This document shows, piece after piece, positions 432-27,006 of a stretch of DNA of 45,654 bases (position 1 is its first letter; each line of letters starts with the position of its first letter). Source of the stretch: Alphaproteobacteria bacterium. Its GTDB lineage: Bacteria > Pseudomonadota > Alphaproteobacteria > UBA2136 > JAPPOO01. Position numbers and translations under genes: made by a program. Under the pieces are notes generated by a model. The model saw only the letters and a list, made by a program, of their open reading frames with translations. It was not told the origin of the DNA and made no database searches. The stretch spans positions 1-45,654 of the forward strand of contig JAPPOO010000053.1 in assembly GCA_028817875.1 (NCBI GenBank), written 5' to 3'.

Positions 432-1620
432 AGTTTTTAGCACCTTCTATAATTTTAAGGTGGTTGGTAGGTAAGTTTTCCGTTTGGCGGAGTGCCTGCA
501 TTTTTTGAATCGGTCTTTCTAACATATTGCGACGAGTGGTCGTCAGCTTTTGGAACTCTTGCTGGCTGCTGTCTATCTTTCCACCCAGTTTTTCCATCGC
601 CTCGCAGAATTTATCCCATTGGCCATGAAAGTCATTCAAAAGGTCTAAAATTTGGCCTGCGGTGCGCTCTAAATGGAAGTTATCAACCGCTTGACGAATC
701 ACTGCCAAAATGGCGTAGAGCGTCACAGGCGAGCACAAAATCACCTTATCCTTCATCGCATCATCCAGCAGGGCGCGGTCTTGCTCATGTAAAAAGGTAT
801 AAACCTGTTCATTCGGAATAAACACCAGCACATAATCTAACGTATCAGCACCTTCCGCATAACCACGCTTGGCGGCTTCCTTCACGCGGGCGCGGGCGTC
901 TTTCAAAAACTGTTTTAGGAATTTCTCTTTATCGGTCGGGGTATCTGCGTCCAACCAAAGCAGGTAATTCTCCAGCGGGAATTTTACATCCATATGCACA
1001 ACGCGCTCTTGCGGCATATAAAAGGTGTAGTCGGGGCGGGTGGTTGTTTCCGCATCGCTTTTTGTAAGCTGCTTTTGGTAGTTGATGCCCTCCACAAAGC
1101 CCGCAAGGCGCAGCACGTCCTCTGCCATACGGTCTCCCCATTGGCCGCGCACACGGCTGTTGGCCAACGCAGCCTGTAGGGAGGACGTGGTATTCGTCAG
1201 CCGTTTTGTTTCATCGGCCGCCAGCGTAATTTGTTGGGTGAGGACATCAAACTTGGCCTTACGGTCTTTCTCAATGGTTTGTACCATGTCCTGCACTTTG
1301 TTGAGTTCGCTTTTCATGCCTTGCAGGGTTTGGTCAATCAGAGACTTCTTGCCATCCATCTCCTTGCTATTCGCTTGAGTTTGCTGACCCAACTTGGTTT
1401 CTGCGACTTTCAAAAACTCCTCAGTAGATTTAGACAAAGCCTCTAACGACAGAGCAGAGAAGCTTTCCCGCATTTGAGCGAGCAGGGCATCCGTCTCCTG
1501 CTGTTTTTGTTGGGTCATACTTTTATGGAGGGCTGTTACGTCTCGCACCCTCCAAAAACCAATGCCCAAGCCAATAATAAGCCCTAAAACCAAACCAATA
1601 ACTAAAAATAAAACATCCAT
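430..1620 (-). CDS. rmuC: DNA recombination protein RmuC
   Basis: 396 aa; N-terminal TM, coiled coil, then RmuC-core-like RGQWGDRMAEDVLRLAGFVEGINYQKQ and DVKFPLENYL. Confidence 0.9.
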   Translation of the reverse strand: MDVLFLVIGLVLGLIIGLGIGFWRVRDVTALHKSMTQQKQQETDALLAQMRESFSALSLEALSKSTEEFLKVAETKLGQQTQANSKEMDGKKSLIDQTLQGMKSELNKVQDMVQTIEKDRKAKFDVLTQQITLAADETKRLTNTTSSLQAALANSRVRGQWGDRMAEDVLRLAGFVEGINYQKQLTKSDAETTTRPDYTFYMPQERVVHMDVKFPLENYLLWLDADTPTDKEKFLKQFLKDARARVKEAAKRGYAEGADTLDYVLVFIPNEQVYTFLHEQDRALLDDAMKDKVILCSPVTLYAILAVIRQAVDNFHLERTAGQILDLLNDFHGQWDKFCEAMEKLGGKIDSSQQEFQKLTTTRRNMLERPIQKMQALRQTENLPTNHLKIIEGAKN

Positions 1621-1655
1621 AATTAAAAAATATCATAAAAACCCTAAAAGAGGGC

Positions 1656-1683
1656 TTGAAAATTTTTCGTATACGATTATATT
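1656..1683 (+). promoter_or_regulatory. sigma70-like promoter with embedded palindrome, upstream of ncRNA candidate 1
   Basis: TTGAAA-16 nt-TATATT; spacer contains TCGTATACGA (1667-1676); shares TTTCGTATACGATTATATTGAGG with 2201-2223. Confidence 0.7.
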
Positions 1684-1689
1684 GAGGGA

Positions 1690-2161
1690 ATAACCGCTGG
1701 CCCTACCCTTAACTACCCCGTTAGGCAGGCCAGCATTACCTAAATTTTTTCAATGGAAGCGAGGTTTCAGAAGATGGAGACACCCGACTAGAAATAGTTT
1801 TGGGATTTCCGCAAGAAAACTGCCCCGCAAGGGGTTAGATATTTCCCCTAAGATACGGGGATGGCTTATAGGGACAAATAATTGGATGCGCAGTGCACGG
1901 CGCAGTTGGTAAATTGGTAGCCAACTAGACCTCCGCATGGTCAAACCAAACCAGAGCACCTACAAATGCTATAGCTAAAGACGCTGGGAGTTACCATTCT
2001 CCCTTGTGAAATAAACAGAAATGGCGTGTGGCAGGGGATTTAATCCCCTAGGGAACGACACACCCTCCCTTTGACGGGCTGCTAGTGTTTGTGTAAAAGC
2101 AAACCAGCAGCCCGCATCGTATTTATACGGCCTTCATTTTGCCCCTATGAGGTATTTTTTT
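1690..2161 (+). ncRNA. candidate structured non-coding RNA 1 (~470 nt), family unknown
   Basis: Promoter at 1656-1683; stems 1696-1702/1728-1734, 1787-1790/1795-1798 (GAAA loop), 1823-1826/1831-1834 (GCAA loop), 1844-1848/1857-1861, 1904-1909/1921-1926 inside 1886-1890/1934-1938, 1986-1990/1999-2003, 2026-2030/2059-2063, 2076-2083/2106-2113; terminator at 2131-2161; no good ORF. Confidence 0.55.
2131..2161 (+). terminator. intrinsic terminator of ncRNA candidate 1
   Basis: CCTTCAT/ATGAGG stem (one bulge) followed by TATTTTTTT. Confidence 0.5.
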
Positions 2162-2191
2162 GAAAAAAGTGAAAAAAATTTAAAAAAGGGG

Positions 2192-2219
2192 TTGCAATTG
2201 TTTCGTATACGATTATATT
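2192..2219 (+). promoter_or_regulatory. sigma70-like promoter with embedded palindrome, upstream of ncRNA candidate 2
   Basis: TTGCAA-16 nt-TATATT; spacer contains TCGTATACGA (2203-2212); near-copy of the 1656-1683 promoter. Confidence 0.7.
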
Positions 2220-2225
2220 GAGGAT

Positions 2226-2596
2226 ATAAAGAACAGGAGAAACAGACCGCCTGTCCCAAAATTACTAAAAAAATGGTCTGACATCTTATTATTCGGTTTG
2301 ATAATGGAGGTGCCTAAAAGGTAATCGTCAGAAAATCAAAAATTTCGAGCACAGCTCGTAAAAAATAGTTGATCAATATTTAGAACGAACTACCAAAGAA
2401 ACCACCATAACTATGGAGCGCGAATGAAGAAATTTGCAAAGGGTACTGCCCTCAAAAATAATTTTATTGCAAACTGAAAAACTGAAGCCGGCGGCGGGGT
2501 GTAAAGGCCTCAAAGGTATGCCCCATACCTTAGCCAATTAGAAATTTAAAAAAGGGGACGAAAGGGAGCGAACATTTATGTTTGGCTCCTTTTTTG
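2226..2596 (+). ncRNA. candidate structured non-coding RNA 2 (~370 nt) with predicted 5' H-type pseudoknot, family unknown
   Basis: Pseudoknot 2233-2237/2250-2254 plus 2243-2248/2275-2280; stems 2288-2292/2301-2305, 2346-2350/2354-2358, 2433-2439/2467-2473 enclosing 2440-2443/2449-2452, 2513-2520/2524-2531; strong terminator at 2565-2596. Confidence 0.6.
2565..2596 (+). terminator. intrinsic terminator of ncRNA candidate 2
   Basis: GGAGC-G-AACATTTATGTT-TG-GCTCC followed by TTTTTT. Confidence 0.8.
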
Positions 2597-2607
2597 TTTT
2601 TTAGGGG

Positions 2608-2636
2608 TTGAAAAGAAAGATAACTAAACATACATT
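2608..2636 (+). promoter_or_regulatory. putative promoter of ncRNA candidate 3
   Basis: TTGAAA-17 nt-TACATT. Confidence 0.4.
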
Positions 2637-2642
2637 ACAGAT

Positions 2643-2760
2643 ACTAATAGGTGAAGTCATCGTTCCAAAAACAATGCTTCAGCACCGGAAGCATCTGACT
2701 TTGCTTGTTACGTTTCATTTTATCCCTTGAGCGCCTCCTTTTAGGGGGCGTTCTTGCGTT
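2643..2760 (+). ncRNA. candidate small RNA 3 (~115 nt)
   Basis: Nested stems 2654-2659/2696-2701 and 2674-2680/2688-2694; 10-bp 3' stem 2729-2738/2744-2753 (includes GU pairs) followed by TTGCGTTT. Confidence 0.4.
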
Positions 2761-3296
2761 TAAGCAGCCGCAAATTTAACTTTGTGTTTAAAAAAGGCGG
2801 CAACCGCAGGCCAGTTAGCGTATTTCAACATAGTGATAGCACTGACGCTGACAATCACACCCGTAGACAGCATGATGGGCGCAGAATCAATAAACCAGCC
2901 GTAGAAAATCCAAAGTCCGTTACCAAGCATCATATACCAGCGGAAACACCAAAAATCGTCTCGACCCAAGCGAGCAAGGCCAGAGCAGCTATTACCCAAC
3001 GTTGCCAGTAGCTCCAATGGATTTGCTAGCGTAAACAAGGTGATAACCCATAACGCTGCCACATAGCCGCCTACCAGTTTTTTTAGGTGTTTTTCAGAAA
3101 CTCTTAAAGCCAATAAGGTTAATCCTACAGAAAACAAGCTATAAAAGGCTGTAGCAGGAGAACCGCTAAGCAAGCAATATGTAGCAAGGCATCCGCTAGC
3201 GGAAACGCTAGTAATAAGGCTAAGGCGTGGGTGGTAAAATGCAAAAGCAAGTCCGAACAGCAAAGCCGACGCGTACCCAAGTATTTCCACAGACAT
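2760..3296 (-). CDS. YgjV-like inner membrane protein
   Basis: 178 aa multi-TM protein; YgjV-like pattern ILGYASALLFGLAFAFYHPRLSL. Confidence 0.6.
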   Translation of the reverse strand: MSVEILGYASALLFGLAFAFYHPRLSLITSVSASGCLATYCLLSGSPATAFYSLFSVGLTLLALRVSEKHLKKLVGGYVAALWVITLFTLANPLELLATLGNSCSGLARLGRDDFWCFRWYMMLGNGLWIFYGWFIDSAPIMLSTGVIVSVSAITMLKYANWPAVAAFFKHKVKFAAA

Positions 3297-3401
3297 TATT
3301 TTTGTATACCTTATTGTTTCTTGCTTCTTATAGAGAGTACAGCTAGACTGCGCGCTATATTGACTGACAGGTAAAAATCCAACTAAAAAGAAACCGCCGA
3401 G

Positions 3402-8068: not shown

Positions 8069-9142
8069 TTAAAACGGGCCTTTAAATTCTTGGATTTCAG
8101 GCTGAACACCTTCTGGCGGTAACCACGTAGCTGTTGGTTGTGCTTTAACCATTTGGTAAGCCTTGGCAGCAATAGTACGGCCGTTCGGGTAGAAGTGGTC
8201 TTCCAAGCAACGCACGGTTGGGCAAGTTGTATCTGCAAAGCCCATACGCGCAACCTGTACAGGTTGGCCATCAGGCCCTGTTAAGCCTTGTTCAGCAATG
8301 CTTGCCAACACTTCCGCACTTAAACCGCAGTTAAGCCAGCCGTTATCAACAACCAAAAGCTTGCCTGTTTTTTGAACGGAATTACCAATGGTTTCCATAT
8401 CCAACGGGCGTAGAGAAACAGGGTCAATTACCTCGGCGGAAATCCCTTCTTCTTTCAGGAATTTGGCGGCACGCATAGATTCAATCGCCATGTGAGAAAC
8501 ACCAAGAATCGTAATATCATCCCCTTGAGACATAATACGCGCTTTACCAATTTCAACTTCGTACAAATCTTCCGGCACATATGCTTCTGCATTACAAAGC
8601 AAACGGTGCTCCATAATAATAACGGGGTTATTATCACGTATTGCAGCAATCATAAGCCCTTTTGCATCGTACGCATTGGTTGGCGCAACCACCTTAAGGC
8701 CTGGGACATGCATCAACATACTATGCAAAGCTTGGCTATGTTGAGCACCTTGCCCCCAACTACGACCGATTGTGCAACGAACAACCATAGGCACTTGAAT
8801 TTGGCCGTTGTACATATAGTGGGCTTTAGCACCCATGTTGATCAGCTGGTTCATAGCCAGCAAAACAAAGTCCATACGAATATGCACGTGAATAGGGCGC
8901 ATACCTGCCATGGCAGCACCAACGGCAACACCAGTCATAGCATCTTCCGACAGAGGCGTACCAAAAATACGGTCTGGGCCAAATTTTTCTAAAAGACCCG
9001 CCGTAGAGCCTTGAATAGCTTTATGGTCATCAACATCAAGCCCGAAGAGGAAAACAGAATCATCACGCGCCATCTCTTGAGAGCACGCTTCCGCGAGGGC
9101 ATCCACAGTACGCAATAAACGTTGGTTACTAAGCATAGACAT
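8069..9142 (-). CDS. TPP-dependent dehydrogenase E1 beta-like (transketolase central/C-terminal) subunit
   Basis: ORF 8069..9265; start at MSMLSNQRLL (9142) overlaps the E1 alpha stop; motifs FGLDVDDHKAIQGSTAGL, DPVSLRPLDMETI. Confidence 0.85.
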   Translation of the reverse strand: MSMLSNQRLLRTVDALAEACSQEMARDDSVFLFGLDVDDHKAIQGSTAGLLEKFGPDRIFGTPLSEDAMTGVAVGAAMAGMRPIHVHIRMDFVLLAMNQLINMGAKAHYMYNGQIQVPMVVRCTIGRSWGQGAQHSQALHSMLMHVPGLKVVAPTNAYDAKGLMIAAIRDNNPVIIMEHRLLCNAEAYVPEDLYEVEIGKARIMSQGDDITILGVSHMAIESMRAAKFLKEEGISAEVIDPVSLRPLDMETIGNSVQKTGKLLVVDNGWLNCGLSAEVLASIAEQGLTGPDGQPVQVARMGFADTTCPTVRCLEDHFYPNGRTIAAKAYQMVKAQPTATWLPPEGVQPEIQEFKGPF

Positions 9143-10085
9143 GGGTGTATAGCTCCTCTTTTGTTGGGAAGGCACTTTGTTCGGCAAAAGTGACGGATTC
9201 GGCAACCAGTTCTTCCACATGGGCATTAATTTCAGCTGTTTTTTCAGTACCAAGCATTTCAGCAAGGCGAGCCACTTGGTCGTTCTCTTTCCATTTTTTC
9301 AGGTCAGCAGGGTTTCTATATGGCGCATCATCGTCATTGTTAGGGCCAACGTGCTCTAACCAACGGTGCGTTTCAATTTCAATAAAAGCAGGGCCATTAC
9401 CAGCACGTACACTTTCAGTAAGGCGAGTCACTTCATCGTGCATTTCAAAAACATCACCGCTTGTAACGTGCCCCATAGGCATGCCGTAAGGCTTAACACG
9501 TTCTTGTATAGAAATCGCCTGCCGACGTTCAATAGGGTTATGAATCGCCATTTCGTTATTTTCACACACAAATAAAATCGGCAGTTTGTGAAGTACCGCA
9601 AAATTAATAGTTTCGGCAAAACAACCTTCTTCCGTAGAACCATCACCAAACATGGCGGTGACAACACGCTGTTCACCTGTTTTCTTCGCTTCATTTTTAA
9701 GAGCCAAAGCGTAACCCGCAGCAACGGGAATTGTTGTACCGACAACAGCGGAAGCACCCAAAATGCCGGATTCAATTTCAACAAGATGCATAGAGCCTGC
9801 TTTACCGCCAGCACAGCCCGTTGCTTTACCGTATAACTCAGCCATCATGGCATTAAGGTTTCCACCTTTGGCAATATGCGTTGCATGGCAGCGGTAGGTG
9901 TTTGAGATAATATCATCTTGGTTGAGGGGGGCACACACTGCGGCAGCAACAGCCTCTTGACCAATGGATAAATGGATAGGACTTTTGATTTTGTCTGATG
10001 GGTAAAGTTCTACCAGCTTTTCTTCAAACCGGCGAACCAAGTGCATTGTCTGGTAAAGAGACTGCACGAGTTCTGGTTGTGTCAT
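9129..10085 (-). CDS. TPP-dependent dehydrogenase E1 alpha-like subunit
   Basis: TPP motif GDGSTEEGCFAETINFAVLHKLPILFVCENN; PIHLSIGQEAVAAA; GGKAGSMHL. Confidence 0.9.
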   Translation of the reverse strand: MTQPELVQSLYQTMHLVRRFEEKLVELYPSDKIKSPIHLSIGQEAVAAAVCAPLNQDDIISNTYRCHATHIAKGGNLNAMMAELYGKATGCAGGKAGSMHLVEIESGILGASAVVGTTIPVAAGYALALKNEAKKTGEQRVVTAMFGDGSTEEGCFAETINFAVLHKLPILFVCENNEMAIHNPIERRQAISIQERVKPYGMPMGHVTSGDVFEMHDEVTRLTESVRAGNGPAFIEIETHRWLEHVGPNNDDDAPYRNPADLKKWKENDQVARLAEMLGTEKTAEINAHVEELVAESVTFAEQSAFPTKEELYTHVYA

Positions 10086-26322: not shown

Positions 26323-26454
26323 CAATGTGTTCCTTCTAGGTTCGTAAAAGTTCCGAGAAATCCTGCTGTAAACGCAGGTTAGATAAATAATTGCATACAT
26401 ATAGATGGATGCAGACACTCTTGTAAAGATAATTTATAGAAGGGAGGGGACTGA

Positions 26455-26712
26455 TTACAGAAAAAGTTCCCTATACGTCAAATCAAAAATGGCCATAAAA
26501 TTTGTTAACTCCGTCACGGTGATGGGTTGGGAGAACGTTTCAATACGGTATAGCCGTTCTTCGGTAATGTTCATGCGTTGAGAAAGTTCTTGTTGGCTAA
26601 GGCCACGTCTTCTTCGGTAGCGTCTTATTTTGCGCGCAAGCTTTTGGTTCCAGTGTAAAGGCAGGTCAAGTGGGTAATTCACAACGGTACTAACTCCTTG
26701 TTTATTCAACAA
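26455..26712 (-). CDS. XRE-family helix-turn-helix regulator
   Basis: KIRRYRRRRGLSQQELSQRMNITEERLYRIE. Confidence 0.8.
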   Translation of the reverse strand: MLNKQGVSTVVNYPLDLPLHWNQKLARKIRRYRRRRGLSQQELSQRMNITEERLYRIETFSQPITVTELTNFMAIFDLTYRELFL

Positions 26713-26736
26713 AAAAGCTGCTTAGTTTTAAGCAGC
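26711..26736 (-). terminator. intrinsic terminator on minus strand
   Basis: Minus strand: GCTGCTTA-AAAC-TAAGCAGC-TTTTTT. Confidence 0.8.
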
Positions 26737-26796
26737 CGGAGGTTCGAAACCGTAACAAACGAAACGGCCAGTGCTTTTGGGCATAGCCTTGGACAT
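26728..26796 (-). CDS. candidate 22-aa small protein, absent from supplied ORF track
   Basis: GGAGG Shine-Dalgarno 7 nt upstream of ATG; MSKAMPKSTGRFVCYGFEPPAA*; stop lies inside the terminator hairpin. Confidence 0.45.
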   Translation of the reverse strand: MSKAMPKSTGRFVCYGFEPPAA

Positions 26797-27006
26797 AACA
26801 CTGCCTCCGGCTATAACCGAAAGCAGCGTTTTGATTTCGGTGACGCAACACCGCGTTCATTAGAGGTTTCGAAGCCCCACACCTGTAACTCACAAGTGCA
26901 GGGGCACAATAGCATACGGAGAAGTCAGTTGTATATGTTTGATAGCTCAAAAAACGAATCCGCCCCACCACACACATTAAAAATGCATGGAGCAGGGCGG
27001 GAGACG

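Follow-up and report, generated by a model that had tools for sequence, protein, structure and literature searches.

Three candidate tandem noncoding RNA genes, two of them behind a repeated palindromic promoter, in the gap between rmuC and a ygjV-like gene

What occupies an intergenic gap of 1139 nt in a small alphaproteobacterial genome? The gap (1621-2759) lies in a 45,654-nt stretch of DNA, hereafter the window, on one contig (C93) of an assembly of 1.58 Mb in 95 contigs. As an earlier, sequence-only reading of this DNA had pointed out, it is far longer than the others in the window, being about twice the length of the next longest (588 nt). That second gap (26419-27006) has a minus-strand fold with a z-score of about -4.1 and, at 26958, the strongest terminator-like hairpin in the window. 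The longer gap is bounded by rmuC (430-1620; Pfam RmuC, 4.7e-66) and a gene for a ygjV-like inner-membrane protein (2760-3296; Pfam Imp-YgjV, 8.5e-9), both on the minus strand. Pfam searches of five ORFs in the gap returned no match, and a protein pseudogene was rejected on these grounds. The sequence-only reading had described three consecutive plus-strand units of promoter, structured body and hairpin terminator. We recovered them near the positions it had given, here as RNA1 (1690-2161), RNA2 (2226-2596) and RNA3 (2643-2757), with weak terminators in RNA1 and RNA3 and only moderate structure in RNA2. Its argument that these units are not leaders of the flanking genes, which are encoded on the opposite strand, is supported by the sequence. 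The reading that we favour, by a modest measure of confidence, is that of three tandem, separately promoted ncRNA genes on the plus strand, trans-acting and particular to this lineage, with RNA1 and RNA2 controlled by one regulator and RNA3 independent of it.

The region from 1500 to 3400 contains nine sigma-70-like promoter matches, compared to 3.2 +/- 1.7 in shuffled sequences. Putative promoters P1 and P2 lie within the two copies (1637-1693 and 2173-2229) of a 57-nt direct repeat, 82% identical and spaced 536 nt apart. P1 combines a -35 element TTGAAA (1656-1661) with a -10 element TATATT (1678-1683), and P2 combines TTGCAA (2192-2197) with TATATT (2214-2219), both at 16-nt spacing. The spacers carry the palindrome TCGTATACGA, at 1667-1676 in P1 and 2203-2212 in P2. 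A 22-nt core (TTCGTATACGATTATATTGAGG) is identical in the two promoters; the 18 nt at its centre occur exactly only at these two sites genome-wide, and the next best genomic site has three mismatches. The third promoter, P3 (AGGGGTTGAAAA, 2603-2636; -35 TTGAAA at 2608-2613, -10 TACATT at 2631-2636, 17-nt spacing), has the -35 context AGGGGTTGAAA in common with P1 and P2 and lacks the palindrome. With zero mismatches, the pattern AGGGSTTGMAA, which was picked after seeing the promoters, occurs at exactly three sites in 45.6 kb, namely P1, P2 and P3. The bodies of RNA1 and RNA2 do not align; only their promoters do. An identical core ahead of unalignable bodies suggests that the promoter was kept by selection or copied. 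The alignments fit a promoter copied by itself as well as a duplicated unit of which nothing but the promoter was retained, and under both scenarios the promoter appears to be the constrained part of the RNA1 and RNA2 units.

The position of the palindrome suggests how the two units could be controlled. A regulator dimer bound to TCGTATACGA between the -35 and -10 elements would block RNA polymerase until induced, and relief of the block would turn RNA1 and RNA2 on together. RNA3, with the same -35 context and no operator, would be expressed independently. Once transcribed, the RNAs would act in trans, through pairing or protein binding. The twin operator-promoter thus makes co-regulation of RNA1 and RNA2 a clear and testable prediction. 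A third exact copy of TCGTATACGA is present in the genome on contig C8 (2376-2385), in a promoter-like region that also contains, about 20 nt off, a second copy with one mismatch. These copies lie upstream of a possible 22-aa peptide frame (MEINKETSLIYKTLYLSGGGGN), preceded by GGGGAG and convergent with the adjoining gene for a 412-aa protein with HTH_3 and SAM-methyltransferase domains. The HTH_3-methyltransferase is a candidate regulator of the palindrome and no more, because genome-wide the 10-mer alone shows no enrichment (3 sites, versus 4 forward and 4 reverse matches for a reversed control). We also considered TCGTATACGA as a known bacterial operator; judged by their titles, none of the 12 papers that contain it concerns one.

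RNA1 is a structured body of about 472 nt without an ORF of note, and ends in seven T residues. Its predicted fold has an energy of -159.9 kcal/mol (z -4.2), and an independent run gave a z-score of -4.7 on the plus strand versus -3.1 on the minus strand. The minimum free energy and centroid structures agree on a 3' multibranch domain (1864-2152), closed just ahead of the T-tract by a long-range stem in which CUUAUAGGG.CAAA pairs with UUUG.CCCCUAUGAG. The local terminator hairpin before TATTTTTTT is weak (-2.8 kcal/mol), so that the T-tract is preceded mainly by the long-range stem. The body also contains a strong hairpin, ACGGGCUGCUAG...CAGCAGCCCG (2074-2114). RNA2, of about 371 nt, is moderately structured (z -2.4 and -2.3) and ends in an intrinsic terminator, AAGGGAGC-GAACAT-TTAT-GTTTG-GCTCCTTTTTT (2558-2595), whose strong U-tract ranks it ninth among 573 T-rich sites in the window. 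Its interior (2409-2475) could also be read as a 17-codon frame, MKKFAKGTALKNNFIAN, five bases downstream of a GGAG, which is likely due to chance.

RNA3, of about 115 nt, folds into a 15-bp stem around two hairpins. An 11-bp terminator-like hairpin (2729-2753) comes next, with a broken, poor T-tract behind it (TTGCGTTT). RNA3 is convergent with the ygjV-like gene and begins directly past the stop codon of that gene, whose 3' end and terminator region could account for the whole unit without an RNA gene. A minus-strand terminator-like hairpin with GTTTTTGG at 2695-2673 is consistent with such an origin, which we consider doubtful although it deserves some weight: the strong fold is confined to the plus strand (z -4.5 versus -1.0 on the minus strand), which argues for a plus-strand RNA, and the -35 context of P3 is common to P1 and P2. 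Folding alone is not decisive, since two of 64 background windows from the same contig (25 shuffles each; mean z -0.5) had z-scores of -4.4 or lower, at -5.9 and -4.45. The attributes of an sRNA gene (its own promoter, no coding capacity and a Rho-independent terminator) are clear in RNA2 and accompanied by a weak terminator in RNA1 and RNA3. The twin promoter and the strand-specific fold of RNA3 are the best evidence for the three candidate ncRNA genes.

Could any of these RNAs belong to a known family? A scan of the whole window identified no Rfam family at the gathering score, and permissive scans of the gap returned only scores to eukaryotic microRNAs and snoRNAs or to Listeria rli32, far under the cut-off. 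Covariance models of tmRNA (RF00023 and RF01849), RNase P RNA (RF00010), 6S RNA (RF00013) and SRP RNA (RF00169) had no match in the gap, and ARAGORN found nothing there. Elsewhere in the window, ARAGORN called a tRNA-His (anticodon atg; 8810-8887, minus strand) within a long minus-strand gene (8069-9265), probably falsely. The genome has its RNase P RNA on contig C1 (234 bits) and a one-piece tmRNA on contig C11 (3860-4289; 139 bits to RF00023; tag AKKSGNVVAFPSRTAAPMAMAA). These results bear out the view of the sequence-only reading that the units are not tmRNA, RNase P, 6S or SRP RNAs. As a separate observation, the permuted alpha_tmRNA model had no match in the genome, though among plasmid records the nearest counterparts of its cytochrome oxidase subunit I are from Alphaproteobacteria. 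SmpB (PF01668) was not found in the genome at E <= 1e-3. The assembly may be contaminated or lack a contig.

A divergent housekeeping RNA, or a tRNA-like or tmRNA-like element, was also considered for the gap. RNA1 contains CAGGGGATTTAATCCCCTAGGG (2032-2053), a hairpin that looks like tRNA-Glu at its T-arm and acceptor end, and after it an acceptor-like strand and TTTGACGGG; the stretch 2032-2068 is 84% identical over 37 nt to the tRNA-Glu 3' halves of other genomes. We judged the hairpin to be a chance resemblance. CCA is absent, the T-loop is non-canonical and neither a D-arm nor an anticodon arm is present, in addition to the negative ARAGORN and Rfam results and the fact that the genome encodes a tmRNA, an RNase P RNA and a tRNA-Glu outside the gap. 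This explanation is highly improbable and close to refuted. A tmRNA-like RNA1 in particular was rejected for its wrong spacing, the lack of CCA, the place of GACGGG within a local hairpin and the existence of another tmRNA in the genome. We likewise rejected the remnant of a tRNA-Glu attachment site, as the genome's own tRNA-Glu agrees at only 18 of the 22 positions and differs in the T-loop. Two functional candidates were dismissed as well. The first was a Csr/Rsm sponge, for ANGGA is not in excess over shuffles (4 in RNA1 versus 2.5 expected; 3 in RNA2 versus 2.3). The second was mutual pairing, the duplex energies being no better than those of shuffles (P of 0.97 for RNA1-RNA2, 0.07 for RNA1-RNA3 and 0.94 for RNA2-RNA3).

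The support that conservation could have lent was sought in a set where this genome is the sole one of its family, alongside 17 others of the order. BLAST searches with the gap in 41 relatives, and with RNA1 and RNA2 in 385 genomes of the class, gave no convincing homologue; all that they returned was A-rich sequence, tRNA or short matches without a pattern. The RNA2 matches in 13 other genomes, for example, are short, scattered along the query and look like noise. The first look scored the best few candidates per genome, and the negative is therefore good and non-exhaustive. Synteny was absent too: in 14 genomes of the same order, the neighbourhood of rmuC, in some cut by contig ends, had no comparable gap. 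The comparison with relatives that the sequence-only reading had proposed yielded no homologue in the genomes searched, which most weakens the reading of the units as ncRNA genes. With no such gap in these neighbourhoods, the island between rmuC and the ygjV-like gene is probably a lineage-specific gain. Its source does not appear to be a phage or plasmid: neither gave a meaningful match, and viral contigs scanned for exact patterns yielded none. A weak inverted repeat flanking the island (1642-1655 and 2733-2746) was considered as transposon ends and read instead as two unrelated hairpins. The nearest named RmuC (48%) comes from a record titled 'Bacteroidetes bacterium 2013_40CM_41_45', a title that may be a misassignment; the value is similar to those of some same-order genomes (best 49%, one family).

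Part of the gap might instead be debris. RNA2, RNA3 or both may be true small-RNA genes, with the body of RNA1 a relic of a pseudogene or mobile element behind a duplicated promoter and the gap otherwise decaying. The weak local terminator of RNA1, its lack of any conserved element and the lineage-specific gain are consistent with this scenario, which we hold to be unlikely: RNA1 is the longer structured body (z about -4.5), the one ORF of RNA1 that was searched (1753-1959, minus strand) has no Pfam match and its promoter core is identical to that of RNA2. Our favoured reading remains three ncRNA genes, most likely regulatory RNAs that act in trans and are particular to the lineage. The sequence-only reading had gone further and proposed an undescribed system. 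Three tandem ncRNA genes agree with the sequence and with the negative Rfam scans; a system is unproven. No homologue was found, and the three RNAs need not form one system, the palindromic promoter being common to RNA1 and RNA2 only.

If transcribed, the units would add new RNA genes from a lineage that has been little sampled; if not, they would be a useful example of promoter-like and hairpin-like features that are convincing in one genome alone. A structured RNA of 470 nt without an Rfam relative would merit biochemical study. A bolder proposal, which we rate as quite improbable, is that RNA1 is the first known member of a new class of structured RNAs of about 470 nt, serving as a ribonucleoprotein scaffold or resembling a ribozyme. 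A dedicated regulator acting at TCGTATACGA would control its derepression jointly with that of RNA2, and the regulon may include the small-peptide and HTH-methyltransferase locus on contig C8.

The units resemble PrrF1 and PrrF2 of Pseudomonas aeruginosa, sRNA genes under Fur control (PMC2851614, PMC7948967) that likewise stand in tandem within a single intergenic region behind matching regulated promoters. RNA1 and RNA2 are, however, three to four times longer, and TCGTATACGA is not a Fur box. Further, the bodies of PrrF1 and PrrF2 are nearly identical, whereas RNA1 and RNA2 have unlike bodies and only the promoter in common. In this they resemble RsmX/Y/Z and CsrB/C, different RNAs with unlike bodies that are co-switched through one shared upstream palindrome. 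The palindrome linked to the RNA1 and RNA2 promoters lies instead between the -35 and -10 elements, and neither RNA has the excess of ANGGA. In being a structured, free-standing gene of hundreds of nucleotides, RNA1 recalls OLE, a large ornate bacterial ncRNA (PMC9723947), and GOLLD and ROOL, yet it is shorter, without an Rfam match, a phage or partner-protein context or any conservation found. A parallel in setting may be drawn with the intergenic sRNAs of Alphaproteobacteria identified by comparative genomics (PMC2245857). The units of the gap are likewise intergenic with their own promoters and terminators, and differ in that they match no Rfam sRNA family and were not conserved among the sampled genomes of the class. 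Orphan intergenic ncRNAs are a common kind, of which RNA1, RNA2 and RNA3, if transcribed, would be new members.
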